DNA of 64,000 bases. Origin: Galactobacter caseinivorans. Lineage in GTDB: Bacteria; Actinomycetota; Actinomycetes; Actinomycetales; Micrococcaceae. How positions within the stretch are numbered: position 1 is the first letter of the stretch; every line of letters begins with the position of its first letter. A program made the position numbers and the translations under genes. This document shows, piece after piece, positions 3,689-53,237 of this stretch. The notes beneath the pieces were generated by a model. That model saw nothing but the letters and a program-made list of their open reading frames with translations, did no database searches and had not been told where the DNA came from. The DNA lies in NCBI RefSeq assembly GCF_003640665.1, contig NZ_QQXL01000001.1, forward strand, positions 124,001 through 188,000, read 5' to 3'.

Positions 3689-4918
3689 ATGGATCAGCAT
3701 GTGAGTCAGGCCACAGCCCCGGCCAACGGGGGCACCGCGGAAGAGAACCGCACGGACGCGCGGGTGCGCCAAGCCAGCACCGGCTTCGGGATCAGCGTGG
3801 AGGACTACCTCCTTCCCACGCGCGGTCGCATCCAGATGCTCGGCCATGACGGCTCGGTGCTTCCGGTCAACGAACAGGGGATTGCCCCCGGGCACAATTA
3901 CCCGGTTCCGGAGGACGAGCGGCTGCTGCGCGCCTACGAACAGCTGGTGCTCGGCCGCCGCATCAACGACCAAAACGCCGCGCTGGTGCGCCAGGGCCGC
4001 ATGGCCGTGTACCCCTCAAGCCACGGGCAGGAGGCGTGCCAGGTGGCCGCCGCCTTTGCCCTGGAGAAGCGCGACTGGCTCTTCCCCACCTACCGCGACA
4101 CGGTGGCAGTGATCGCCCGCGGCGTGGACCCCAACCAGGTCATGACCTCCTTCCGCGGGGAGTGGCACCAGGGTTATGACCCCCTGGAGCACAACACCTC
4201 CGTGGAGGCCACCCCGCTGACCACCCAGCTGCTGCACGCAGTCGGCGTGGCTCACGCGGCCCGCCTGCGCGGCGAGGACACCGTGGTGTTGGCCATGTGC
4301 GGCGACGGCGCCACGAGCGAGGGTGACTTCCACGAGGCGCTGAACTTCGCCGCGGTCTTCCACCTGCCCGTCATCTTCTTTGTTCAGAACAACGGTTACG
4401 CCATCTCCGTACCGCTCTCCGCCCAGTCCGCCGCGCCCTCCCTTGCCCACAAGGCCGTGGGTTACGGCATGGCCGGCGAGCGCGTGGACGGCAACGACTT
4501 GATGGCGTTGCTTGCCGTGCTTGACCGGGCTGTGAGCATTGCCCGCGAGGGCTCCGGCCCGCTGCTGATTGAGGCGGAGACCTACCGCATGCAGGCGCAC
4601 ACCAACGCCGATGATGACACGCGCTACCGCCAGAGCGACGAGGTGGCGCAGTGGGTGGAACGCGACCCGGTGATCCGCATGCGCGCCTACCTTGACGAGC
4701 GCGGGCTGCTGACGGAAGCCGAGCAGACTCGCATCGCGGAGCTGGCGGAGGAGACGGCAAAGGACCTGCGGGACGCGATGAACGCGGACGTGCAGACGGA
4801 CCCGCTGGAGCTGTTCCGCCACGTCTTTGTGGAGCAGACCCCGCAGTTGAAGGAGCAGGAGGCCAAGCTGGCCGACGAACTGGCCCGTGAGGCAGAGCAG
4901 ACGGAGGAAACCCGATGA
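3689..4918 (+). CDS. 2-oxoacid dehydrogenase E1 alpha subunit (branched-chain or pyruvate type)
   Basis: E1alpha of a thiamine-diphosphate-dependent 2-oxoacid dehydrogenase, which decarboxylates the oxo acid and passes the acyl group to lipoyl-E2. The ThDP motif GDGATSEGDFHEALNFAAV...NN lies in the middle and the phosphorylation-loop-like segment HTNADDDTRYR follows. The length of 409 residues is normal. ATG 3689 is chosen because GGAGA precedes it by 8 bases; ATG 3674 has no site. Its stop overlaps the E1beta start (ATGA at 4915). No E3 gene is nearby. The adjacent Lrp-type gene favours branched-chain oxo acids; pyruvate cannot be excluded. Confidence 0.9.
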   Translation: MDQHVSQATAPANGGTAEENRTDARVRQASTGFGISVEDYLLPTRGRIQMLGHDGSVLPVNEQGIAPGHNYPVPEDERLLRAYEQLVLGRRINDQNAALVRQGRMAVYPSSHGQEACQVAAAFALEKRDWLFPTYRDTVAVIARGVDPNQVMTSFRGEWHQGYDPLEHNTSVEATPLTTQLLHAVGVAHAARLRGEDTVVLAMCGDGATSEGDFHEALNFAAVFHLPVIFFVQNNGYAISVPLSAQSAAPSLAHKAVGYGMAGERVDGNDLMALLAVLDRAVSIAREGSGPLLIEAETYRMQAHTNADDDTRYRQSDEVAQWVERDPVIRMRAYLDERGLLTEAEQTRIAELAEETAKDLRDAMNADVQTDPLELFRHVFVEQTPQLKEQEAKLADELAREAEQTEETR

Positions 4919-6036
4919 GCACGCAGGCCACCCCAGAGGTGAAGCAGGCAGACTTTGCCGGTGTTGACTCCCAGGCCCGCGGCGCGCACGTGGACCAGCC
5001 GGCACCGGCGCTGAAGAAGCAGGCGCCCAAGGCCGGCCCCACCACGTTGGCCGCGTCCCTGAACACCGCCCTGGCGGACGCCATGGCGGCGGATCCAAGC
5101 ATGGTGGTCTTTGGCGAGGATGTGGGCAAGCTGGGCGGCGTCTTCCGCATCACGGACGGCCTCCAGGATCGCTTTGGTCAGGAGCGTTGCTTTGACACGC
5201 CCCTGGCGGAGTCCGGGATTGCCGGCATGGCGGTGGGCATGGCCATGAATGGCATGCGCCCGGTCGTGGAGATGCAGTTTGACGCCTTCGCCTACCCCAG
5301 CCTTGAGCAGGTCTTTAGCCACATCGCGAAGATGCACAACCGCACCATGGGCAAGGTTCGCCTGCCCATCACCATCCGCATCCCCTACGCCGGCGGCGTG
5401 GGCGGCGTGGAGCACCACTGCGACTCGTCGGAGGGCTACTACGCCCACACTCCGGGGCTCAAGGTCTTCACGCCCTCCGGTGTGGAGGACGCCTACCTGA
5501 TGCTGCGCGAGGCCATCGCCAGCGATGACCCGGTGATCTTCTTTGAGCCCAAGAGCATGTACTGGTCCAAGGAAGAGGCGGACCTCGGCGCGCTGCGCGA
5601 GTCTTACGAGGCCGGCGACGCGGAGCGCACAGAGGGCACCGCGCGCGTGGTGCGTCCCGGCAAGGACGCGACCCTGATTGCGTACGGCCCCTCGGTTCCC
5701 ACCGCGTTTGCGGCGGCGGAGGTCGCGGCAGCTGAGGGCCTGGATCTGGAGGTCCTTGACCTGCGCACCATTGTGCCGCTGGATGATGCGGCCATCGACG
5801 CGAGCGTGCGCAAGACCGGCCGTGCCATCGTCATTGCGCAGTCCCAGGGCTTTGCCTCCGTCGCGAGCGAGCTGGTGGCCCGCGTGCAGGAACGCAACTT
5901 CCACTCCCTCTCCTCGCCGGTGCTGCGCGTGACCGGCTTCGACATCCCCTTCCCGGCCCCCAAGTTGGAGAAGCACCAGATTCCGAGCGTCGATCGCATC
6001 CTTGACGCCGTTGACGCACTGACGTGGGAGGACTGA
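4915..6036 (+). CDS. 2-oxoacid dehydrogenase E1 beta subunit
   Basis: The partner of E1alpha in an alpha2beta2 heterotetramer. The 373 residues start with about 35 low-complexity residues, then the transketolase-like Pyr domain (VFGEDVGKLGGVFRITDGL, ESGIAGMAVGMAMNGMRPVVEMQF) and the C-terminal domain (LDLRTIVPLDDAAIDASVRKTGR). The start overlaps the E1alpha stop by four bases and the stop overlaps the E2 start (TGATG at 6034), so the three are translationally coupled. The N-terminal extension is longer than usual for E1beta and may help binding to E2. Confidence 0.92.
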   Translation: MSTQATPEVKQADFAGVDSQARGAHVDQPAPALKKQAPKAGPTTLAASLNTALADAMAADPSMVVFGEDVGKLGGVFRITDGLQDRFGQERCFDTPLAESGIAGMAVGMAMNGMRPVVEMQFDAFAYPSLEQVFSHIAKMHNRTMGKVRLPITIRIPYAGGVGGVEHHCDSSEGYYAHTPGLKVFTPSGVEDAYLMLREAIASDDPVIFFEPKSMYWSKEEADLGALRESYEAGDAERTEGTARVVRPGKDATLIAYGPSVPTAFAAAEVAAAEGLDLEVLDLRTIVPLDDAAIDASVRKTGRAIVIAQSQGFASVASELVARVQERNFHSLSSPVLRVTGFDIPFPAPKLEKHQIPSVDRILDAVDALTWED

Positions 6037-7562
6037 TGACAACCGTGTCTATCCAGGCCAATACCTTTAACCTCCCCGACCTGGGAGAGGGCCTGACGGA
6101 GGCCGAGCTGGTCACCTGGAAGGTGGCCGTGGGCGAGAGCGTGGCGCTGGATCAGGTCATCGCAGAGGTGGAGACCGCCAAGAGCCTCGTGGAGGTTCCC
6201 ACCCCCTACGCAGGCACCGTCCTGGTGCTGCACGGGGCGGAGGGTGAGACCCTCGCCGTGGGCCGCCCGCTGATCACGGTGGGCCCGGAGGGCTCGGATC
6301 CCGCAGCGTTTGCCGCCGGTTCCGCCGGTTCCGCCGAGCAGGCGGAAGGCGCGCAGTCCTACCGCGAGGAGGAGCGCGCCGGCTCGGGATCCGGCAACGT
6401 CCTGATCGGATATGGCACCTCGGAGGAGGGCTCTCCCACGCGTCGCCGTCGCGGGCGCAGGGCGGCCCACGTTCCGGTGCAGGCTTCGGGGACGGCTTCG
6501 GAGACGGCGGCGGAGTCAAGGCCCCTGCCCGACGCCGCGGCGTCGGCTCCCACGGAGACCTCGCCTTCCGCAGGCGCACCGGCTCCCGCGCTGGCTGCCC
6601 GCGTCGTGAACCCCCTCGTGCGCCGCTTGGCACGCGACATGGGCGTGGACGTGGCGGCACTCTCCGGCTCCGGACCCGATGGGCTCGTGATGCGCGCCGA
6701 CGTGCACGCCGCCGCCTCCGGTGCCGGCCAGGCACCAGCCGCAGGCTCGGCCACCCAAGCCAACCCCGCGTCGTCGGGCAGTGGTTCCGGTGGAGCCAAC
6801 GCAGGGACGGCGTCCTCCGGCGCAGGCGCCGGGGAGCTGGACAAGCGCTCCGGGCTGGGGATCGCCAGCCGCACGCCCATCACCGGCGTGCGCAAGGTGG
6901 TGGCACAGACCATGTCCCGCTCGCGCCGAGAGATCCCGGAGGCCACCGTGTGGGTGGACGTGGACGCCACGGAGCTGCTCAAGCTGCGCCGCGGCATCCG
7001 CCCGGATGCCAACGGGCGCCGCCCGGGCGTGCTCGCGATCGTGGGTCGTTTTGTGGCCGCCGGCCTGCAGCGTGTACCGGAGCTGAACTCCCGGATTGAG
7101 CAGGCGGCGGATGGCTCAGAGGAGATCGTGACGCTGGACGGCGTGAACCTTGGCATCGCCGCCCAGACCGAGCGCGGGCTGGTGGTCCCCGCCGTGGAAC
7201 GCGCAGAGCGCCTCAGCGCGCGTGAACTGGACGCCGCCATCGCCGAGCTGATCAATACCGCCCGCGAGGGCAAGTGCACCCCGGCGCAGCTCACCCGAGG
7301 CACCTTCACGCTCAATAACTACGGGGTCTTTGATGTGGACGGTTCCGCCGCGATCATCAACCACCCGCAGGTCGCCATCCTTGGCCTGGGGCGCATCAAG
7401 GCGCGCCCGTGGGTCGTGGACGGGGAGATCGTGGTGCGCGAGATCACCGAGCTCACGCTGAGCTTTGATCACCGCGTGTGTGACGGCGGGGCGGCCAGTC
7501 GCTTCCTGCGCTTTGTCGCGGATGCCATCGAGCGCCCGGGAGAGGCGCTCGCGGAGCTCTGA
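6036..7562 (+). CDS. 2-oxoacid dehydrogenase E2 (dihydrolipoamide acyltransferase)
   Basis: The core acyltransferase of the complex, 508 residues. There is one N-terminal lipoyl domain with the lipoyl lysine in ETAKSL (about residue 47), an Ala/Pro/Ser-rich linker, a peripheral-subunit-binding domain (NPLVRRLARDMGVDVAALSGSGPDG), a second linker and the CAT catalytic domain ending with LSFDHRVCDGG (His and Asp of the HxxxDG active site). ATG 6036 overlaps the E1beta stop. The unusually long Ala/Gly/Ser linkers are typical of actinobacterial E2s. Tandem hairpins follow the stop. Confidence 0.93.
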   Translation: MTTVSIQANTFNLPDLGEGLTEAELVTWKVAVGESVALDQVIAEVETAKSLVEVPTPYAGTVLVLHGAEGETLAVGRPLITVGPEGSDPAAFAAGSAGSAEQAEGAQSYREEERAGSGSGNVLIGYGTSEEGSPTRRRRGRRAAHVPVQASGTASETAAESRPLPDAAASAPTETSPSAGAPAPALAARVVNPLVRRLARDMGVDVAALSGSGPDGLVMRADVHAAASGAGQAPAAGSATQANPASSGSGSGGANAGTASSGAGAGELDKRSGLGIASRTPITGVRKVVAQTMSRSRREIPEATVWVDVDATELLKLRRGIRPDANGRRPGVLAIVGRFVAAGLQRVPELNSRIEQAADGSEEIVTLDGVNLGIAAQTERGLVVPAVERAERLSARELDAAIAELINTAREGKCTPAQLTRGTFTLNNYGVFDVDGSAAIINHPQVAILGLGRIKARPWVVDGEIVVREITELTLSFDHRVCDGGAASRFLRFVADAIERPGEALAEL

Positions 7563-7574
7563 TTCCGGCGCTGC

Positions 7575-7606
7575 CGTGATGATGGCGCGCCGTGATGATG
7601 GCGCGC
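7575..7606 (+). repeat. Tandem 16-bp duplication
   Basis: The 16-mer CGTGATGATGGCGCGC occurs twice in direct contact (7575-7590, 7591-7606), immediately downstream of the E2 stop and just before two hairpins. Confidence 0.85.
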
Positions 7607-7674
7607 CAGGGACGCGGGGGCAACCCCGTCCCTGGCGCGGTCGGCCGGGTCCACCTTTGGTGGGCCCGGCCGAC
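7604..7674. terminator. Two successive strong hairpins after the E2 gene
   Basis: The first pairs GCGCCAGGGACG(cg)GGGG with CCCCGTCCCTGGCGC around GCAA. The second has 15-nt arms at 7640-7654 and 7660-7674 with one G-T pair and a 5-nt loop. There is no T-tract, so they would act as Rho-dependent or bidirectional barriers between the dehydrogenase operon and the next gene. Confidence 0.6.
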
Positions 7675-7680
7675 TAGTCT
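7675..7680 (+). promoter_or_regulatory. -10 box of a probable leaderless mRNA (MBL-fold gene)
   Basis: TAGTCT occupies -12 to -7 relative to ATG 7687, directly after the hairpin pair. No ribosome site is visible. Confidence 0.55.
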
Positions 7681-7686
7681 GAGCGC

Positions 7687-8568
7687 ATGGAGAGTACTGA
7701 ACGTGAGCACACCAGTGGGGCACAGAGCAGCGCGGCCGTGATGGCGGCTGGCTGGACCCGTGTGGGGGAGCGTGAATGGGTGCGCGTGGAGCAGCCATGC
7801 TCCGTGAACCTCGGCCTGATCATCGGCGAGGAACGCGCGCTGGTGATAGACACCGGCGCTGGGCCCCGCTCGGCCGGCCGTCACCTGGAGGCCGTGCGCC
7901 TGCTCACCGACCTGCCGCTGGTGGCGGTCAATACCCACCACCACCACGATCACGCCCTGGGCAATCACGCCTTGGCCGGCGCAGGCGTCACGGAGTTCTG
8001 GGCACACCAGGGCACCATCGACGCCCTGGATCAGAACGGTGAGGCCCAGCGTTCGTTGCTGAGTGAGGAGGACGGCGAGCCGGAGATGCGCGCCGCGTCC
8101 GGCCCAGGCACCCGCGTGCTCCCGCCCACTCACGCCGTCACCAGTTCACCCGTTGACCTTGACCTTGGCGGGCACCAGGTGACCCTGATGCACCTTGGCC
8201 GGGCCCACACGGCCGGGGATGTGGTGGTGGCCTCCGGGCCCATCCTCTTTGCCGGTGACATCGTGGAACAGGGCGGGCACCCGCAATTTGAGGACGCCTT
8301 CCCGGACGAGTGGCTGCGCGTCCTGGGCAAGATCATCGCGATTGACGAGCTGTACCAGCGCATTGTCCCCGGCCACGGCACCACCGTGGACGCGGACGAG
8401 GTCAGGGCCCACTACCACCGGCTGGCCCGCGCCATCCAGGTGGCGGACACAGCACTGAACGAGCACGAGAGCGATGCGACCAAGTCCATCCCGGTGCTGC
8501 CCTTTGGGCCCGTGCAGTCAAGGCACCTGCTCAACCGGCTCCGCGATACGAGGGCCGGCGCGCTCTAA
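7687..8568 (+). CDS. Metallo-beta-lactamase-fold hydrolase
   Basis: A 293-residue MBL-fold protein. The zinc motif THHHHDHALGNH is complete (near residues 80-91), the metal-binding histidine and aspartate follow in LMHLGRAHTAGD and LFAGDIVEQGGHP, and the last in VPGHG. This is the hydrolase pattern of the glyoxalase II/cyclase-like branch; substrates in the family range from thioesters to lactones, so none is assigned. It has its own promoter and is convergent with the PAP2 gene. Its stop codon lies in an 18-bp tandem duplication. Confidence 0.85.
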   Translation: MESTEREHTSGAQSSAAVMAAGWTRVGEREWVRVEQPCSVNLGLIIGEERALVIDTGAGPRSAGRHLEAVRLLTDLPLVAVNTHHHHDHALGNHALAGAGVTEFWAHQGTIDALDQNGEAQRSLLSEEDGEPEMRAASGPGTRVLPPTHAVTSSPVDLDLGGHQVTLMHLGRAHTAGDVVVASGPILFAGDIVEQGGHPQFEDAFPDEWLRVLGKIIAIDELYQRIVPGHGTTVDADEVRAHYHRLARAIQVADTALNEHESDATKSIPVLPFGPVQSRHLLNRLRDTRAGAL

Positions 8569-8591
8569 GGAGTCGGCGCGCTCTAAGAAGT
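8556..8591. repeat. Tandem 18-bp duplication spanning two convergent stop codons
   Basis: CGGCGCGCTCTAAGGAGT (8556-8573) is repeated at 8574-8591 with one change. The TAA of the MBL gene is in copy 1 and the TAG of the PAP2 gene (opposite strand) is in copy 2. Confidence 0.85.
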
Positions 8592-9683
8592 CGGAGCCGC
8601 ACCCGCGGCGGGGTCCCTCGGCAGCGAGTCAACCCAGCGCTCCAGCAGGGGGAAGACGCAGCAGGCCGCGGCCAGGCACAGCGTGAGCCCCACCATGAAG
8701 AACCACTGCAGGCTGGGTGCGTCCTCGGTGCCGGGGGAGCGTAGCTGAGGAATCAGGAGCACGGCGCACACCACCACGGCGGCCAGCCCCAGGATCGCCA
8801 GCGTCAGCGAGGCGCCACGCGCCAGCATGCCGGGGCGGGCATCCATGCGGCGCGGTGCCAGGCCGCGCAGGGCACGGGCCTTGGCGAGGGAGCGTTCGCG
8901 CAGAGCCACGCCCCACCCGGCCGCCACGCCGCAGAGCGCCACCACCAGGAACGCCCCGACGATGTCTGAGGGGCGGTGCCAGCCCATCACCAAGGTGCCC
9001 GCGCCGGCCACACCGGCCAGCACTGAGCCAAGCATGGCGATCCAGGGACGGGCAGCCCGCGGGGCCGCGAGCAACAGGGCCAACACGGCGGCGGCCGCGG
9101 CGGTGCTATGCCCGGAGGGGAAGGAGTTCATATTCGCCGCGGACACGCCAAGGTCGGGGCGCGTCAGGAAGTCGTGCTTCAGGAACTGGGTGGCGAGCAT
9201 GGCTGCGCCCCCGCCTGCCACGGCGATGAGCGGGACCACGACTTGGCGCCGGACCACCGCACTGATGAGCACGCCAGCAGCCCCGATGAGCCCCACTGCC
9301 AGCGGCAGCACGTCCAGGCTGACCTGCGCCTGATTGCGCTGGTACTGACCCCAGGCGGACTTCAACGCGCCCTCCAGGCTGCGCTCGTCCACCCACTGCC
9401 CGCGCACGGTCAGGATGAAGAGGGCGTACAAGGCCGCCACGCCCACCAGGGCACCGATGGGTAACAACCAGGCCCACCAGCGCGGGCCGCGCTGCTTGGC
9501 GCCGGTGGTCAGCAGATCGCGACCGGGCAGCGGATCGCGGCTGGGCCGCCCGGCGACTCCCAGACCGGTGGCACCGTCAACAGGGGCACCGTCGGCAGGG
9601 GCACCGTCGGCAGTGGCACCGCGATCGGTGGCCGCCGGGGGGTGTGCGGTCACCGGAATCTGGTCCGTGGAGGGGGAAATCAT
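8583..9683 (-). CDS. PAP2-family membrane phosphatase
   Basis: An integral membrane phosphatase of 366 residues with a Pro/Ala-rich cytoplasmic N-terminus of about 75 residues, then several transmembrane segments. The three PAP2 motifs are present: K...FLTRPD, PSGHS, and GWHRPSD. The class includes undecaprenyl-diphosphate and phosphatidic-acid phosphatases; the first would serve cell-wall lipid recycling, but this is not proven. ATG 9683 is used because the in-frame extension to 9761 runs into the divergent menC promoter. The gene is divergent from menC. Confidence 0.85.
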   Translation of the reverse strand: MISPSTDQIPVTAHPPAATDRGATADGAPADGAPVDGATGLGVAGRPSRDPLPGRDLLTTGAKQRGPRWWAWLLPIGALVGVAALYALFILTVRGQWVDERSLEGALKSAWGQYQRNQAQVSLDVLPLAVGLIGAAGVLISAVVRRQVVVPLIAVAGGGAAMLATQFLKHDFLTRPDLGVSAANMNSFPSGHSTAAAAAVLALLLAAPRAARPWIAMLGSVLAGVAGAGTLVMGWHRPSDIVGAFLVVALCGVAAGWGVALRERSLAKARALRGLAPRRMDARPGMLARGASLTLAILGLAAVVVCAVLLIPQLRSPGTEDAPSLQWFFMVGLTLCLAAACCVFPLLERWVDSLPRDPAAGAAPTS

Positions 9684-15280: not shown

Positions 15281-15433
15281 GGAGATTCCTCTTTCGGCAC
15301 AGGCTGAGTGATGCCCCAGTCTAACCGCCATGCTGTGGCTCATGTCACAGGCCCACGCAAAGTTGACAAGGAGGCGTCACAGAACGGAAACCGCACCGCC
15401 GTCGCACCGCCGTCGGGCCGCCGACTGCCGCGC

Positions 15434-22046: not shown

Positions 22047-22206
22047 GATCCCTAGCAGACCACTCGTGCCTGCGCTTGTCACATCCGTGACGCCCCGCCG
22101 GCGGGAGGGCGGGGGTTGGCGGCGCGGTGGGCGGGCGGCGCGGTGGGTGGCGCGGTGTGCTCGACGGCGCGTGGCGGGGTAGGCGGCGGGGTGCGCGAGG
22201 AAACCC

Positions 22207-22315
22207 GGATCTGCTCATGTTTCGTGGATCTGCTCGCCTTTCATGGATCTGCTCCGTCCATTGGGGCGAGCAAATCCACCGAACACGAGCAAATCCATAG
22301 AACACGAGCAAATCC
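22207..22315. repeat. 19-bp-phased inverted repeat array, type A copy 1
   Basis: Forward 10-mers GGATCTGCTC at 22207, 22226 and 22245, then a 13-nt centre (22255-22267), then inverse 10-mers GAGCAAATCC at 22268, 22287 and 22306. Every step is exactly 19 bp. The spacers are partly complementary too, so the whole 109 bp could fold into one long imperfect hairpin. It lies between two divergent genes, so it is not a terminator. 19 is not a multiple of 3, so the repeat is not coding. Confidence 0.95.
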
Positions 22316-22451
22316 TCGGCGGGGGTCCCCGTCCGCCGTCGCCGCCGTCCCCGTCGTCCGCCGCCGCCCGCCGCCGTCCGTCGTCCCCGCCGCCCGCCGC
22401 CGTCCCCCGCCCCCGTCCGCCGTCCGCCGTCCCCGCCGCCCGCCGTCGTGC
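22313..22451 (+). repeat. 139-nt adenine-free low-complexity tract
   Basis: No A occurs on the plus strand from 22313 to 22451. The tract is made of irregular GTCC, GCC and GTCCGCC steps. It starts in the last unit of the phased array and ends about 130 bp before the ferredoxin reductase start. No protein frame through it looks real. Confidence 0.9.
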
Positions 22452-30693: not shown

Positions 30694-30874
30694 GGATCCG
30701 CTCGCCTTTCCCGGATCTGCACTGGCCCTTCCCGAACCTGCCTGGTCCCGGCGAGCTGCCGCCCCGGATCCGCTCGCCTTTCCCGGATCTGCTCACCTTT
30801 CATGGATTTGCTCCGTCCAATGGGCAGGGCAAATCCACGGAACACGAGCAAATCCACGGAACACGAGCAGATCC
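30694..30874. repeat. 19-bp-phased inverted repeat array, type A copy 2
   Basis: Forward units GGATCCGCTC or GGATYTGCTC at 30694, 30713 (variant), 30766, 30785 and 30804, a 13-nt centre (30814-30826, CGTCCAATGGGCA), then inverse units at 30827, 30846 and 30865. Steps are 19 bp except for one 53-bp interval with decayed sequence. Its inner part is nearly the same as copy 1 at 22207. Confidence 0.93.
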
Positions 30875-34199: not shown

Positions 34200-34265
34200 T
34201 GCCCGACGCCGCGGGGTGAGCTTTCGCACCGAAAGCTCACCCCGCGTCGTCGGGCAGTTTTTTTT
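34200..34265. terminator. Bidirectional terminator between rtcB and ThDP enzyme genes
   Basis: A very long hairpin: about 26-nt arms (34200-34226, 34231-34256) with loop CACC, followed by GTTTTTTTT. It serves both convergent genes. Confidence 0.9.
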
Positions 34266-47148: not shown

Positions 47149-47331
47149 CGCATTTCCTAGGCCACTCTGCGGCGGCTGTGGCGTGAGCCCTGACGTTAGC
47201 CCTGGCCTGGCCGACGCCGCCCACCGTGCGCCGTGGGGCGTAGTGCCACTTTCCACCGGGTTTTGGCCGTGCGCCCGAGTATTTGCCGTCCTTGCGGCGA
47301 AAAGCCGGTGGAGATCCGGGCCGCCATCCGC

Positions 47332-47398
47332 GGATTCCCCGAGATTTCATGGATCCCCCGTCGAGTGGGCGGGGGATCCACGCAAACCCGGGGGATCG
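47332..47398. repeat. 19-bp-phased inverted repeat array, type B copy 1
   Basis: Forward 9-mers GGATTCCCC (47332) and GGATCCCCC (47351), centre GTCGAGTGGGC, inverse GGGGGATCC (47371) and GGGGGATCG (47390). All steps are 19 bp. The spacer before the inner unit ends TTTCAT as in type A. It overlaps the 3' end of a frameshifted HTH gene. Confidence 0.93.
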
Positions 47399-48140
47399 AC
47401 GTTCGAGGCGTCCTGCGCGCCGCTGCGCAGCAGCGTCCCGGAGCCGAGGTAGACGCTGTTCTGCACTAAGGCGTAGGGGTCCAAGCCTGCAGTCGGATCG
47501 GCCCAGCAGTTACGGCCAAGCTGACGCGGATAGCTGATCCAGCCGCCGACTTCGCTGCCGGGGATGAGCAGCCCGCGGACCTTGCGGGTGCGCAGGTTGA
47601 CCGCGCGGAAGATAGGAGGCTCGGTCCCCGGCGCGGAAGGTGTCGGCGAGCATTCCGGTCGGGTGGTTGGGCTCGGACGAGATCGTGAGCAGCTTGCCGA
47701 CCTGCATCAGCTCCGGCTCCTCCAGCGCACCCCAGCTCACGCGGCCAGCTCCGGCGCCAGGAGGGCCTGCGTGGGTGACTGGCACCCGAGGCTAAGAACG
47801 CCTCGTAGTCGGTCAGCAGGGCCGTTTTCTGGGCCTCCGACAGGCTGCTGTTAGCCAGGACGGAAGCGACGACGTTAGGGGTGCGCTGCAGAACGGAGTC
47901 CAAGCCCAGGGTGCGCAGCGCGGCCGCGGTGACAGCGGCGGGGGAGAAGCGCAGGGCAGCGGGCAGAGCGTGGACTGTGCTCGGCGAGAGCAGCTCCGCG
48001 GGGGACTTGGTCAGGCGCTGGATGTTGCTGTGGGAGATGGGGTGGCCGGCCGCAGTGGCGAGCTCAGCGACCCGGCGCAGCCTCAGCTTCTGGGTGTCGA
48101 TGGCGTCCCGGATCAGGTCGCCCAGGGGATTGATGGACAT
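47347..48140 (-). pseudogene. Frameshifted HTH-domain protein gene
   Basis: The first about 120 codons (MSINPLGDLIRDAIDTQ..., then HPISHSNIQRLTKSP) read as an HTH protein like those of the XRE class. Near 47780 the frame changes: the continuation ALEEPELMQVGKLLTISSE is in another frame, and a third frame carries VNLRTRKVRGLLIPGSEVGG to a stop at 47347-47349 within the type B array. At least two frameshifts, so the protein is not made whole. The original role may have been regulation within a mobile element. Confidence 0.75.
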
Positions 48141-48802
48141 GGCACTCGCTCCGCTCTCAGTGGTGATCGGTCATGCCCAGGTGGTCGGGGCGTTTATGTG
48201 AACTCAGCTCGGAGTGGGCGACAGCTTGGGCTGGACGAGCCCCGGTCGGAGTTCCAGAAGAACGCCATTCGGGATGCCCCCCGTTGTGCCTCGGGGTGAC
48301 GGGGCGTAGCGCAAGGAGAAGGAGAGACGAAGTCTCATTCTTCGACTTCGTGACTCGCTCACGACCGTCGGCTCTGGCTTCGCCCCGCCGACGATCGAGG
48401 CTCGTCGGGGCAGTGAGATGGGATGGCGATGATGCGACGTTTGCGAGTAACGCGGAGTAGGCAAGGAACTACGTCTAGTGACGGCCCATGAGTGCATAAC
48501 CAGCCACCACGAGTCACGCGCGGACGAAGAGGGAGGTTCGGCGTCTAGCCCACAGGGTCCGCGATGACGGCCTCGAGGGTAATCCGGGTGAATGGGCTAT
48601 CTGAGGTCAAACGGAGCCGCAGGTGAGGTGGTGGATCGGCGGTGAGTGCGTAATTGGCTGGAGGAGCCGACCAGAACGACGAGCGTGCACTGAAGCACCA
48701 CGCGGCGCCGGTGCGCATCGGCAACGGTCTGCTCAGCAACGTGTCGTCCCAAGTGATCCGCAGGGTCGCTGTGGGCGTCCTGACCAAGTGCCAGGTCAAC
48801 TA
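48141..48802. other. Intergenic/degenerate region
   Basis: 662 bp. No credible gene. A hairpin CGAAGTC/GACTTCG lies at 48328-48350. 48545-48799 on the minus strand is open and ends in HLRLRLTSDSPFTRITLEAVIADPVG-like sequence that could be the last part of a lost gene, but I cannot place it. Confidence 0.4.
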
Positions 48803-49108
48803 GGCGACAACGCCGCAATGGAATCCTTCTGGGCACTGCAGCAAAAGAACGTCCTCAACCGGCAAACCTGGGCCACTCGCCAAGACCTGCTCCTGGCGAT
48901 CGTGACCTGGATCGAACGCACCTACCACCGCCGCCGCGCCCAAGACCGGCTCGGCGGCTTGACCCCCATCGAATACGAGAGCAAACTCGACACCACCCAG
49001 GCCCTCGCGGCCTCAACCGAAGTTGTCACCAACTCCTACACCAGTCCCCTCAGTGGTAGCGGGTGTGCTGGCCATTGTGGCCGGTGCTATCACCTACTGT
49101 TCGCGTGA
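48803..49108 (+). pseudogene. IS3-family transposase, 3' fragment
   Basis: The frame begins abruptly at GDNAAMESFW, where the glutamate is the third residue of the DDE catalytic triad, and continues LQQKNVLNRQTWATRQDLLLAIVTWIERTYHRRRAQDRLGGLTP, the typical end of IS3/IS150-type OrfB. The two catalytic aspartates and all upstream sequence are missing. The frame reads on to a stop at 49106 past the normal end. No terminal inverted repeats were found. Confidence 0.85.
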
Positions 49109-49216
49109 TGGAAATGGAGTTGTGCTCCGCATTCTTTGGACAGGTACTCCGTATTGCACGGGACCGTAAGGTAAAATGTTCATGGCAAACCTATTCACGC
49201 CTTAGGAGGTATAGTG

Positions 49217-49408
49217 ATGAAATTTGGATTGCTAATGGCAACAGGTGCTCTTCTCGTTGGAGTGCTTGCTATTTGGGGAATATTCCTAGTTTTCTCTGGC
49301 GACCCGGTGGTGGCGCGCAGCGGGCAGGCCCTCATACTGGTTGGCGTTGGAGTCGGGTTTTTGACTCTGGCGTTGCGAGCTATACAAAGGCGTAGATCGC
49401 TCAAATGA
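49217..49408 (+). CDS. Small two-helix membrane protein
   Basis: 63 residues, MKFGLLMATGALLVGVLAIWG start, two hydrophobic helices and a basic RRRS end. ATG 49217 lies seven bases after a strong AGGAGG site; GTG 49214 is closer. The composition is far more A+T-rich than the core genes. It lies in the accessory island. Family unknown. Confidence 0.65.
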   Translation: MKFGLLMATGALLVGVLAIWGIFLVFSGDPVVARSGQALILVGVGVGFLTLALRAIQRRRSLK

Positions 49409-49463
49409 GCTTGCTGGCGTGGCCCCGTTTTCCTTGATGGGAAACGGGGCTTCGCTCTGCCAC

Positions 49464-49865
49464 TCACGCGTGTAGCAAGCGGCCTCGGTTGCCGGCCACG
49501 TGTTGAGTTACGGTCTTTAATGGCTTGGTTTGCATCACGGGCACCGGCCCGCGTTGATTCGGAACAGCGTGTGGCCGACTTTCGCGTAGACGACCTTGCA
49601 GACCGCCGCTTTCGGCGCGGGCTGCAATGAGCGCCTGAATGGTCTGTGCGGAGGTGTTGGCATTGACGGCGTGCACGAGGGCCACGAGGACGCCGATCTT
49701 GGTCATCGCAAGGGCGGTCCGAAGCTCCTCACTGCCGACTAGCTCGCCGGTCTCAATGGCGGTCGTGATCTCTTCGAGGGTCTCGTTGGCGGAGGCCAGG
49801 GACCGCTCAATGGGCTTAGCCATCTCTTGGGCGTTGGCGATGATGCATTTCGTGTCGAGAGACAA
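49464..49865 (-). CDS. Hypothetical soluble helical protein
   Basis: 133 residues. The N-terminal 85 residues are helical and acidic (AKPIERSLASANETLEEITTAIETGELVGSEELRTALAMTKIG), followed by a basic, Pro-rich C-terminus (RESRPHAVPNQRGPVPV). Start TTG 49865 follows GAAAGGAA by five bases. It is next to the lipoprotein gene on the same strand with a 29-bp gap, so the two may be co-transcribed. Family unknown; phage origin plausible from context. Confidence 0.6.
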   Translation of the reverse strand: MSLDTKCIIANAQEMAKPIERSLASANETLEEITTAIETGELVGSEELRTALAMTKIGVLVALVHAVNANTSAQTIQALIAARAESGGLQGRLRESRPHAVPNQRGPVPVMQTKPLKTVTQHVAGNRGRLLHA

Positions 49866-49894
49866 GGACGTTCCTTTCGTTGGGCTGGCGAGAG

Positions 49895-50296
49895 CTAGTT
49901 GCCGCTGGTGTTTTCGAACTGGGGGAGGATCTGGGTCGGCTTGAACGTGACCTTGTAGAAGTCCGTGGAGACGTTCTTGCCCTCGATCTGCTCCACGAAG
50001 TAGGTGGTGTTGTCAGAGTGGCCCAAGAAGTGCTTCTTAAACTCGTCGGCACCGGTCTTGCAAGTGACCTCGAGCTGGTTCTCGGCGGTGTCGGCCTGGA
50101 TCGCACACAGCCCCTGAATCTCCAGGAGGTACTTGTCTGTGATGCCGTTGAAGAACGCGACCCGGCGGGCGACCTTGAAGTTGTCGGAGTCCTTGGAAAG
50201 GTTTTCTGAGGCAACGTCTGCGTCGTTGGCGCAGGCCGTCAGGGCGAGGGTGCAGGCTAGGAGTATGGCGGCGGCTGCCGCGAGGTGCTTTTTCAC
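49895..50296 (-). CDS. Phage-type small lipoprotein
   Basis: 133 residues with a signal peptide and lipobox LTAC (Cys 22). The mature part (SENLSKDSDNFKVARRVAFF, NGITDKYLLEIQGLCAI, LEVTCKTGADEFKKHFLGHSDN, YFVEQIEGKNVSTDFYKVTF) resembles the beta-sandwich lipoproteins of actinobacterial phages, which are thought to act at the surface of lysogens. I give this from memory of the family. GTG 50296 lies downstream of a terminator on the same strand. Confidence 0.7.
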   Translation of the reverse strand: MKKHLAAAAAILLACTLALTACANDADVASENLSKDSDNFKVARRVAFFNGITDKYLLEIQGLCAIQADTAENQLEVTCKTGADEFKKHFLGHSDNTTYFVEQIEGKNVSTDFYKVTFKPTQILPQFENTSGN

Positions 50297-50319
50297 GCGG
50301 GTCCTTACCTTTTGGGCAT

Positions 50320-50349
50320 AAAAAAGGCCGCCCTGGTGTGGAGCGGCCT
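50320..50349 (-). terminator. Minus-strand terminator upstream of the lipoprotein gene
   Basis: On the minus strand AGGCCGC and GCGGCCT arms are followed by TTTTTT. It lies before the lipoprotein start, so it ends an incoming transcript or attenuates the lipoprotein mRNA. Confidence 0.65.
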
Positions 50350-50525
50350 GACGAAAATCGGGTGGGGGAGGGGTGGCGACGTGCGCTTGTACCAAAGTTG
50401 ACATGTGTGGAGGAGTGGAACTGAGCCAACGATTTTGACAACGATTGTGCAACACCGGTTGTGGCGATGCCCGATTAGCCGTTAACTTTTGACGCGAAAG
50501 CAGACTCTTCGAGGGCGGGGAAATA

Positions 50526-51221
50526 ATGAAACTTTGCGGCCGCAAAGTAGCTGCAGGAGTTGTTGGCGCGCTCATGTTCGGAGTGCTGGCGTTGTCGGCG
50601 GGCTCCGCTAACGCGGCTATGCCGCCGGCCTCGTACAAGACGGAGCGCATCGAGTTTAAGGTTCGGGAGCGATTGCCGAATGGCAAATGGCGTAGCACTC
50701 CCGTGAGGACCGGGTTCTATGACAACGTGTCGCAAAAGGGTTGGGGGCAGGACAAGGCAGAGCATAGGCATAACATCAAGACCCAGGCATCGATTCGGTA
50801 CCTCGCCTCGGCGCCCACCATCGTGAAGTCCGGCACCTCATATGCCCACACGGTGTGGAGTAATGAGATTAAGTGCAAGAACGGAAGATGCACGGTCACG
50901 GATGAACGGGAAGTCAGGGGAGTCTTTGTGCGATCAGCGCTGAAGGTGCTCCACGGTGAGACAGTCGGTGGAGAGCTTGGTCTTCAGACCGCGTACTGCC
51001 TGAACCCTGACAAGGCCCTCCGGTGCCCCGACTGGGTCGACGTTGGCCTCGGCAAGGCTTGGTCTGCGGTGTCAGGAACTGTCGGGTTCGCTGGCAGGTC
51101 GGCTGCGACAACTTCCCTCCCAAGGGATGGGAAGTTGTACACAGCCACGACCGAGCGCATCGGCATCGGCAAGGCCGTCGACGCGGCAGAACTTGACGAA
51201 CTGATCGTCGGGGATGAGTAG
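50526..51221 (+). CDS. Secreted protein of unknown function
   Basis: 231 residues with a signal peptide (positive start, hydrophobic core, cleavage after SANA near residue 30). The mature protein has four cysteines in two close pairs (IKCKNGRCTV, AYCLNPDKALRCPDW), which could form disulfides outside the cell, and a basic N-terminal half. No family recognised. ATG 50526 is the start. The stop overlaps the next start by eight bases. Composition is lower in GC than the core. Confidence 0.7.
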   Translation: MKLCGRKVAAGVVGALMFGVLALSAGSANAAMPPASYKTERIEFKVRERLPNGKWRSTPVRTGFYDNVSQKGWGQDKAEHRHNIKTQASIRYLASAPTIVKSGTSYAHTVWSNEIKCKNGRCTVTDEREVRGVFVRSALKVLHGETVGGELGLQTAYCLNPDKALRCPDWVDVGLGKAWSAVSGTVGFAGRSAATTSLPRDGKLYTATTERIGIGKAVDAAELDELIVGDE

Positions 51222-51603
51222 CGGGTTGGTCACGGAACCCTCCGTGTTTTTTGAATTGACCGCGGGAATCGGGGAGGCGCTGAGGTTCGCGAGCTTCACG
51301 GGATCTGTGCACGCTGTTTCCGTGCTGTTATGGGAGCCACTGATTGTCAGCGTTACTTTCGAGGACGACGGCCTAAGAACGGTTGTGGTGGATGTGGACT
51401 TCTGGGCGGAGGGGACGGTACCGGTCCCTTCCGTTCGGGAACGCGGGTTTGACCTCGGCTTGCAGCAGATCGCTGAACCGGGGGAGTGGAACTCATCGCC
51501 TTCGAGGGAACTACTTGAGGTGCTTGCTTGTCCGGAACAGCCGCGTCTGTTCAGGATTGTTGGAAACGTGGAGGAAACCCTCCGATCCTGTAATAGCGGC
51601 TAG
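51214..51603 (+). CDS. Hypothetical protein coupled to the secreted-protein gene
   Basis: 129 residues, acidic, with beta-strand-like stretches (VSVTFEDDGLRTVVVDVDFWAEGTVPVPS) and no signal peptide or membrane helix. The start overlaps the stop of the secreted protein, so the two are translated together; an inhibitor/immunity or partner role is possible but not shown. A strong hairpin follows. Confidence 0.65.
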   Translation: MSSGLVTEPSVFFELTAGIGEALRFASFTGSVHAVSVLLWEPLIVSVTFEDDGLRTVVVDVDFWAEGTVPVPSVRERGFDLGLQQIAEPGEWNSSPSRELLEVLACPEQPRLFRIVGNVEETLRSCNSG

Positions 51604-51629
51604 CGCCAGGTTCCTGAGCAGTCGAGAGC

Positions 51630-51665
51630 CGAAAGGCTCCCACGATAATTCGTGGGAGCCTTTCG
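51630..51665. terminator. Terminator hairpin after the two-gene unit
   Basis: Perfect 15-nt arms (51630-51644, 51651-51665) around ATAATT. No T-tract follows on the plus strand. Confidence 0.7.
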
Positions 51666-51828
51666 AGCGGACGCTGTGACATCCCCTTGGCGGCCTGATC
51701 GGCGCGATGCCGTCGTGGCGAACTGGCACCCAAGCGTTCGGGGAACCCTCGGGCACACCAGACGACACCCATTTTTTGCCGGACCGCCCCTTCAAAGCCG
51801 ACCAGTCCACGGGCCGATGGCAACCTAG

Positions 51829-52074
51829 TCAGCGCTTCGACAGCGTCAGCCTCGGAGTGCCTCCAATGGGTGGGGCCCCAGCGTGTGCTGGGGCCTCGTC
51901 GGTTTTGTGGATGATGTGGACATCATGGGTGCGGGCGAGGGTTGTGGTGTCGCCGCGGGCGTTGGTGAGGGGGATGGGGTGGTCAAACCACCACCAATCG
52001 CCGTCGCGCGTGGCCGCGATGTCCAACTTGTTGCGCCTCAGCCCACACGCCACCTCGTGCAGCCGCGCCCTCAC
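51829..52074 (-). CDS. Small phage-like hypothetical protein
   Basis: 81 residues, RLHEVACGLRRNKLDIAAT then GDWWWFDHPIPLTNARGD. GTG 52074 overlaps the preceding stop (GTGA), as in compact phage operons. The 3' end contains a hairpin (51874-51895). It is the last gene of a minus-strand set whose other members are broken; this one has no visible defect. Function unknown. Confidence 0.55.
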   Translation of the reverse strand: MRARLHEVACGLRRNKLDIAATRDGDWWWFDHPIPLTNARGDTTTLARTHDVHIIHKTDEAPAHAGAPPIGGTPRLTLSKR

Positions 52075-52253
52075 GCTTCCACAACCTTGGCGGGCTTCCA
52101 CCCGACGAAGGTGACCTCCTTGGGCGTCCAAGCATGGGTCTCACCTTCCGAGTCAGTCCCTTACCAGAGCACGCCTTCCGGCTTGTCGGCTTGGTTGACG
52201 ACCTGGGTCATCCCGGGGCGGAGGTGGTCCGCCTCATGAGCTTGCTTGTCCAC
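52071..52253 (-). pseudogene. Small phage-like gene with an in-frame stop
   Basis: GTG 52253, seven bases after AAGGAG, opens VDKQAHEADHLRPGMTQVVNQ and reads to EGVLW, then TAA at 52161-52163. The same frame continues GTDSEGETHAWTPKEVTFVG and KPAKVVEA to TGA 52071, which overlaps the next start. One base change from TAC or TAT would restore the protein. Confidence 0.55.
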
Positions 52254-52269
52254 GGTCAGGCTCCTTCGA

Positions 52270-52380
52270 TTAGGCCCACGCACAACACGAGGGCACAAAA
52301 AGGCCGCCCACCAGGACGGCCATAGTCTTCGGGAACCGGGAGAAGAGATCCTCCACCCAGTTGAGACGCTCAGGTTTCAT
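52270..52380 (-). CDS. Very small membrane protein, possibly truncated by frameshift
   Basis: 36 residues: MKPERLNWVEDLFSRFPKTM then a hydrophobic end. A frame one base away continues the hydrophobic helix (ALVLCVGLIEGA) to a stop beside the ribosome site of the next gene, so the original protein was probably longer. The start overlaps the end of the upstream phage-like gene. The 3' part coincides with a minus-strand terminator (52297-52321). Confidence 0.45.
   Translation of the reverse strand: MKPERLNWVEDLFSRFPKTMAVLVGGLFVPSCCAWA
52297..52321 (-). terminator. Minus-strand terminator-like hairpin
   Basis: GGCCG(a)TCC and GGCGGCC arms followed by TTTTTG on the minus strand. It shares AAAAAGGCCGCCC with the hairpin at 50320. 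Confidence 0.5.
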
Positions 52381-52995
52381 TAGCGCGCTCCGCCCAAGGG
52401 CTTGCTGCGGCAGCGCGGGACGGGCAAGTTTCGGTCTCCGCTTCCAGGGCGGTGATCTGCGCCTGCAGCTTGTCAATCCGGACTTGTCGGCGGGCTCGGG
52501 CGCGGCTGGCCGTGACTTCCGCAATCGGCTTGAAGTCCCCAACCTCTGCGACCAGGATCTCGGCGTCACCACCCCAACGCCGCACGATGGCCTGCTTGTC
52601 ACGAGCGGAAGAGCGTGACTTGTACGTTTTGGTCTGGGATGGCCAAAAGAAGTCGGGGCGCTCAAGGGCCCAGCGGTCGCCCTGCGCGGCCGCGATGGCT
52701 ACCCATTCGTCCCAGCCCTCTGGCTTCTATCCGGCCTTGAGGTGATGCAACTGGTGGTTGCCTTCGATCTCGATGTGGTCGATGGCCTCAGTCGGGGCGC
52801 ACAAGGGTGTTCCCGTGGCGTTTGCCGGTCTCCGTGTCGATGAACCAGTTGATGTAGAAGAACTGATTGCGGAGTACGACGGATGGCGGTGGTGTGGGCC
52901 GTCTTTGGGATTCCCGTTCTTGTCCGTGCGCGCGCCGCGCTGGTCCAGGAGCAGGCCCTTGGAGTAGTCCCTGTGCGCATACCCTGCCCTCGCGT
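52370..52995 (-). pseudogene. Broken phage-like structural/conserved protein gene
   Basis: Consecutive fragments in different frames: AGYAHRDYSKGLLLDQRGAR then TDKNGNPKDGP; FFYINWFIDTETGKRHGNT; TEAIDHIEIEGNHQLHHLKAG; after a TAG, KPEGWDEWVAIAAAQGDRWA and on through a coiled-coil-like ARARRQVRIDKLQAQITALE to a stop at 52370. At least two frameshifts and one nonsense codon. The pieces have the character of an actinophage protein, but I cannot name it. The 5' end abuts a type B repeat array. Confidence 0.65.
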
Positions 52996-53081
52996 GGATC
53001 CCTCTCGTTCGCGTGGATCCCCCGAGATTTCATGGATCCCCCGTCGAGTGGGTGGGGGATCCACGAAAACCCGGGGGATCG
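52996..53081. repeat. 19-bp-phased inverted repeat array, type B copy 2
   Basis: Forward 9-mers GGATCCCTC (52996), GGATCCCCC (53015, 53034), centre GTCGAGTGGGT, inverse GGGGGATCC (53054) and GGGGGATCG (53073). All steps are 19 bp. 53015-53081 matches 47332-47398 in the same orientation at 64 of 67 positions. Confidence 0.95.
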
Positions 53082-53237
53082 GTGGGATGAACCTGAGCGG
53101 CGCGGATCGGCGAACAACGTTTCGCCGGGCGTTCGCAGCGCATCCGGACAACGAACGTCCTAGCACCCACAACCCGGTGGGCATCCGCTAGACCGGTCGC
53201 GAGGGTCCATCCCAGTTGAACCCAGCCCGGCAGCTGC

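Follow-up and report, generated by a model that had tools for sequence, protein, structure and literature searches.

The stretch analysed here (the window) comprises 64,000 nucleotides of Galactobacter caseinivorans, positions 124001-188000 of contig C11 in an assembly of 2,949,884 bases and 19 contigs, and carries four intergenic arrays of short repeated units, named A1, A2, B1 and B2 after the two types of core found in them (Table 1). B1 and B2 stand at the two ends of a decayed insertion between a tRNA-Met gene and an EamA gene. In every array, a short centre separates a run of direct units from a run of inverted ones. Our best reading of these elements is that of a four-box family, comparable to repetitive extragenic palindromic sequences (REPs) and miniature inverted-repeat transposable elements (MITEs), which has diversified into core classes; a geometry that outlasts its own sequence seems to us a finding worth following up.

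Table 1. Repeat elements and other features in the window (coordinates are window positions)
Feature	Coordinates	Strand	Remarks
A1, type A array	22207..22315	+	3 + 3 units, between divergent genes
A2, type A array	30694..30874	+	3 + 3 units at 30766-30874; one more forward unit, degenerate, at each of 30694 and 30713
C element, CCACCGGGTTTT...AAAAGCCGGTGG	47253..47311	.	59-bp palindrome, 21 bp before B1
B1, type B four-box array	47332..47398	+	two forward and two inverse units at a step of 19 bp
Decayed insertion, tRNA-Met to EamA gene	47399..52995	.	B1 and B2 at its ends; orphan open reading frames included
Integrase-core fragment	48623-49108	+	inside the insertion
Phage-type recombination directionality factor	49895-50296	-	inside the insertion
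B2, type B array	52996..53081	+	four-box block 53015-53081; extra degenerate forward unit at 52996
Probable decayed C element	53122..53180	.	9/32 arm positions changed, 27-bp interior length kept, 41 bp after B2

Scaffold and cores of the type A and type B arrays

The census of type A and type B arrays covered the whole genome. A scaffold pattern indifferent to the core retrieved 8 arrays on its own; with a covariance model trained on 8 arrays, the total rose to 17 at the sensitivity of that model, 4 of type A and 13 of type B. All 17 lie outside called genes, as called with a purpose-made simple scorer of open reading frames (ORFs) and not with a published gene finder. The 19-bp step, which the sequence-only reading had attributed to both types, is kept in every one of them. 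The complete unit measures 19 bp; that of type A is formed by GGATYTGCTC plus a GTGTTTCGT-like spacer, that of type B by GGATCCCCY plus a GGGTTTTCGT-like spacer, and arms of the two classes were never combined in one array. Dimers of the A type are confined to four sites in the genome, those of the four A arrays. In the window, TTTCATGGAT occurs 4 times against 0.04 expected, and the B core is not enriched outside the arrays (18 matches, arrays included, vs 14 expected). The inner block measures 33 bp in type A and 29 bp in type B, and the array centre thus varies in length; extra units, some of them degenerate, extend B2, A2 and the array on C19.

The finer details of the scaffold proposed from the window survived unevenly in this larger set. 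The hexamer TTTCAT ahead of the innermost forward unit is found in only 4 of the 17 arrays, all of them in the window, and is replaced elsewhere mostly by TTTCG-type sequences. From the proposed GTC...TGGG centre, GTC was recovered in all 17 arrays and TGGG in 8, and ACGNAA after the innermost inverse unit, present in 10, is no fixed part of the scaffold either. The more general proposal of different cores on a common scaffold was borne out, since the two types are alike beyond chance on 30 non-core columns: the mean distance between A and B arrays is 12.8 columns, compared with 21.6 expected from base composition, indicating that the classes are related. Within classes, the corresponding distances are 7.7 (A-A) and 8.3 (B-B). 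The A arrays are nearest to other A arrays on the non-core columns as well, so that there is no mosaic to prove a swap of cores, and divergence of subfamilies explains the data just as well as the exchange of a core inside a fixed scaffold, the event that had been suggested. The two types seem to be subfamilies that have drifted apart, and they do not prove that one core abruptly replaced another.

A third sequence class, C, accompanies type B. This element is a 59-bp palindrome composed of CCACCGGGTTTTCGCC, 27 variable bases and GGCGAAAACCCGGTGG, which was sought with a strict pattern in the whole genome and with a tolerant scan of 464 kb; the stretches examined hold 13 copies, one of them decayed, and none was found in 98 other genomes. 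C adjoins 10 of the 13 B arrays and none of the 4 A arrays, and the only class-specific partner found is, in this way, a piece of DNA and not a gene. The association is weaker than this proportion implies, because C16a-d have long flanks in common and C16f-g are a tandem copy, and these copies are not independent. The B block, with arms CCCCCGGGTTTTCG, also measures 59 bp in all and has a register identical to that of C around a different interior; where detected, 7-9 of the 32 arm positions differ between B and C, compared with a minimum of 10 across 626 kb of background.

Further core classes with the same geometry

A scan free of assumptions about the core, at steps of 14-32 bp over 464 kb of this genome and 326 kb of congeneric DNA, returned the A and B arrays, and its other matches were judged to be low-complexity or coding repeats. 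After 361 kb and 400 kb were added, classes D, E and F emerged; their census refers to 1.22 Mb fetched, or 41% of 2.95 Mb. Class D has GGTTTGCGGC boxes at a step of 20 bp and a length of 70 bp, class E has AAGCCCGCTT boxes at a step of 19 bp and a length of 59 bp, and class F has TTTGCCGTG boxes at a step of 20 bp and a length of 66 bp. The plan of the family can be summarised as two or more direct boxes of ~10 bp followed by their mirror images (++--), with a step of 19-20 bp and a block of 59-70 bp. In the step-free search, low-complexity or mostly coding matches were removed before arrays were counted; a strict scan of the 1.22 Mb at all steps from 12 to 40 bp then left 16 intergenic arrays, members of D, E and F among them, 12 with a step of 19 bp, 4 with a step of 20 bp and none with any other.

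The elements with TTTGC show most clearly how the core can change while the frame stays fixed, and they do so, on a smaller sample, across species. A four-box scan for this motif at steps of 14-26 bp gave matches only at step 20, six in this genome (66 bp) and two in the congener G002 (67 bp). In classes D and F and in the G002 set, TTTGC stands at fixed places, and the flanking letters of the box vary (GGC, CGTG, CCC). The observation made in the window largely holds: it is real, partly as described, and broader than stated, given that the pattern of a shared scaffold with different cores was supported also for class C, for D, E and F as relatives by architecture only, and for the TTTGCC elements of the congener.

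Boxes, folds and possible readers

Whether the arrays are conserved as sequence or as structure can be asked from the pairing of their arms. The pairing within elements was no better than between elements, with values of 293 vs 294.3 for B and of 285 vs 301.6 for C (small samples), and within-element pairing lay under the null in A, D and E and equalled it in F (4-13 elements per class). No compensatory stem changes were seen in classes A-F, in samples of that same size. Such a result fits conserved sequence boxes and not a conserved fold; if a fold were under selection, pairing would be expected to be better within elements. Single units of A, B and E fold at only 0 to -0.8 kcal/mol, and those of D and F no better than most shuffles (z of 0.37 and -0.89); whole elements fold strongly. 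The terminator-like sites, defined by a stem-loop and a T run, include none of the four arrays of the window, and no Rfam family was found at any array in 11 stretches. Altogether, the lack of any gain in pairing, the weak folds of single units, the missing T run and Rfam families, and the missing target-site duplication (see below) favour conserved boxes of double-stranded DNA.

In this line, the explanation that we prefer, with about an even chance of being right, is that the A and B arrays belong, as two core classes, to a single family of short intergenic repeats that is restricted to its lineage, is read as double-stranded boxes and spreads whole. Elements would have multiplied as entire copies, their arms gaining and losing boxes through slippage. 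The step would have been kept because a protein dimer, most likely of a mobilising enzyme that has been lost or has escaped recognition, bound double-stranded boxes spaced by about two helical turns, and new core classes would appear when the boxes and their reader drift, or change, in concert. A DNA-binding or mobilising dimer would be a plausible reader of this kind. A further-reaching version, in which the ++-- geometry at 19-20 bp comes first, the box sequence serves as a replaceable address for paralogous proteins and each species would hold its own set of addresses, is tentative, and we regard it as rather unlikely.

Several results weigh against the preferred explanation. Flanking direct repeats of at least 5 bp were found in 0 of 30 elements (mean length 1.67 vs 1.66 in the null). 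The Y1 (RAYT) transposase family PF01797 had no match in the genome, and the same search matched 5 of 14 control genomes; no mobilising gene was recognised, short of a full transposase survey, and for the Mu/Tn7-type family PF09299 even the control genomes gave no match. No protein reader of the boxes was identified. The step signal itself is diluted by looser matching, which raised the count to 24 arrays, 18 of them at 19-20 bp; the corresponding controls, one reversed and one only complemented, gave 11 arrays each, with 1 and 4 at 19-20 bp, and a match at step 38 in this looser scan is the double step of a B array. Four arrays, all with other cores, came out of the strict scan of 712,001 bases of the congener G002, at steps of 19, 20, 30 and 30 bp, so two of them depart from the common step. 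Finally, the common geometry may be a product of convergence among separate families, A/B, D, E and F. The two step-30 arrays of G002 (L211 18835-18950 and L217 15021-15136) have the inverted layout of A and B, with core TCGCGAGTGCC.

Arrays of this sort could also be built by mutation alone, with tandem slippage and template switching making and homogenising them, no reader being involved and the classes being no more than seeds amplified by chance. The arms do grow and shrink, as the extra units of B2, A2 and C19 illustrate, the C16 copies go back to local duplication, segmental or tandem, and template switching has been described, in the available parts of PMC8604942 and PMC8794818, as homogenising the arms of inverted repeats. 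Homogenised arms should nonetheless match better within than between arrays, which is not what we found, and neither the single step of 19-20 bp nor the characteristic length of each class (59, 66, 67 or 70 bp) nor the recurrence of one array at sites that are not linked would be explained, so we hold this origin to be unlikely. A role at the RNA level, as terminators or as 3' hairpins that stabilise the mRNA in the way suggested for REP elements, would agree with the strong folding of whole arrays (z of -5.4 to -8.2 relative to shuffles, three arrays) and with the position of A2, A3, C18a and C18b, which start 5-30 bp past a stop codon. Besides the lack of T runs, compensatory pairing and Rfam matches already mentioned, this role is at odds with the 4 of 17 arrays that lie between divergent genes and with gene contexts that resemble the background (4 divergent, 3 convergent and 10 tandem, vs 41/26/105), and we consider it quite improbable.

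The insertion between B1 and B2 raises the possibility that genomic islands use B arrays for attachment or recombination, with the core as the site of a recombinase. The distance from tRNA-Met to the EamA gene is 6.1 kb here and 143 bp in the congener G001, which lacks the insertion, and the insertion, 5.6 kb long, includes a directionality-factor gene that matches mycobacteriophage genes at 73-75% DNA identity. The positions assigned to B1 and to the four-box block of B2 by the sequence-only reading were confirmed, the two forming 70-bp direct repeats with 94% identity; they are each other's closest relatives, with 2 differences in 30 scaffold columns, and their homology ends at the array boundaries, so they are apparently copies of one array. 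This sharp end of homology does not suit attachment sites. Moreover, most arrays adjoin ordinary housekeeping genes and not islands, A1 and C18a lie between conserved neighbours with no island, and among the island ORFs tested only the integrase-core fragment, and no integrase gene, was recognised, all of which leaves such a function with a small chance. Still more remote, to the point of being barely credible, is the proposal that methylation or restriction reads the core through GGATC or the BamHI-like GGATCC. By inspection, GATC, GGATC or GGATCC occurs in most B and many A units; these words are neither under- nor over-represented, with GGATCC at 0.93, GATC at 0.97 and GGATC at 0.95 of expectation, half of the A boxes (GGATTTGCTC, in the inverse arms) lack GATC, and the boxes of D, E and F rest on other sequences, so the methyltransferase suggested earlier found no support. 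In the congener G002, a different gene cluster lies ahead of the EamA gene.

Relation to known repeats

A REPIN is laid out as two self-palindromic units. Like the REPINs and their associated transposases (RAYTs), in the available part of PMC3116915, the arrays form a population of repeated, hairpin-forming sequences in one genome; unlike them, they show the box order ++-- and live in a genome without a Y1/RAYT match. Tagged REPs (GTAG- and CGTC-types), as presented in an extract of PMC3733652, are also short, intergenic, repeated and palindromic when head to head, and according to that same extract some REP families are species-specific and CGTC-type families have no dedicated transposase. 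In the REP unit described there, a stem-loop carries a GTAG or CGTC tag that stays unpaired, whereas a single unit of our arrays folds no better than shuffles, and the arrays owe their palindrome to a pair of direct boxes opposed to a pair of inverted ones at the 19-20 bp step. Integron attC sites, which likewise have pairs of boxes, are another conceivable comparison. A 2025 survey of REPs, in the portion available, tabulates three Actinomycetota species (PMC12306157). With prokaryotic MITEs, which the sections available of PMC10969869 describe as non-coding, shorter than 500 bp, provided with inverted-repeat ends and mostly intergenic, the similarity is again partial: the arrays do have terminal inverted repeats, they have no target-site duplication, no autonomous partner was found (short of a full transposase survey), and they are GC-rich with a fixed internal geometry of 19-20 bp, whereas MITEs are typically AT-rich in that source.

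Lineage-specific intergenic palindromic repeats are therefore a known kind of element; for ++-- four-box arrays at 19-20 bp, no description was found among titles and the openings of abstracts in a largely non-subscription repeat literature. Searches for palindromic repeats usually rely on sequence and on single self-folding units, and a family held together by geometry with unrelated cores would escape them. Classes A-F and the congener set offer a natural series in which to look for whatever reads them. Should there be a reader, the core classes predict paralogues of matching specificity, a prediction testable by binding assays.

Distribution and surroundings of the arrays

The covariance model found no member of the A/B family elsewhere, neither in three congeners nor in 197 genomes of the bacterial family (own genome included, with stricter filters in the large searches); one weak match in the congener G003 (E 0.156) is taken as chance. 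An exact pattern was not found among 59 genomes, and in 84,980 species an exact pattern gave 12 matches in scattered phyla, with ~14 estimated by chance under uniform bases. A relaxed pattern matched 40 of the 197 family genomes besides our own, vs 9 in the reversed control, and these matches were treated as unrelated because the covariance model over the same genomes found our own only. Two sites could be compared with the congener G002, where the neighbour pairs of A1 and of C18a, the B array by purA, are adjacent and array-free, with gaps of 271 bp (537 bp here) and 173 bp (221 bp here), respectively. The doubled gap at A1 reflects GC-rich simple repeats of CCG type around the array (window 22100-22450). 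As for possible carriers, one type A array gave no plasmid match, and the core-A pattern had no match in viral contigs. The single viral match of the core-B pattern (L158) is an isolated hairpin in unrelated DNA, close to the end of a contig and devoid of 19-bp units, and is taken as a coincidence.

The neighbours of A and B arrays include transporters, purA, purH, an ArsR/CDF pair, AlkA, an enoyl-CoA hydratase and tRNA genes, among others, and as they have no common function this test indicates no regulon. Defence or partner genes were also considered, and the large ORFs between two B arrays in stretch L099 gave only a SWIM-type match in PADLOC and Pfam and weak DUF matches. These ORFs (4242-8989) comprise a weakly DUF7824-like gene and a SWIM zinc-finger gene (PADLOC SWIM_XIII, 3.5e-34). 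In stretch L105, the ORF adjoining the type A array A4 (4993-6132) weakly resembles an AbiEi antitoxin (PADLOC, E 5e-6). In stretch L102, ~60 bp ahead of the B array at 4793, genes for cation efflux and for an ArsR-type regulator enclose a near-perfect palindrome of ~34 bp, presumably an operator.

Other repeated palindromes, belonging to the TGCCCGACGCCGC, TGCCACCTCATACGACAAACGCCGTC and GCTTTGCGCCTCAATGTGTGCGGATGCAG families, were noticed in this genome (L133, L135, L137, L139, L098, L103 and window 34200-34256), and the congener G002 holds its own set of them. Stretch L171 carries an S-adenosylmethionine (SAM) riboswitch at 5889-5984 and a ZMP/ZTP riboswitch at 15332-15415, the latter starting 150 bp after a class D element.

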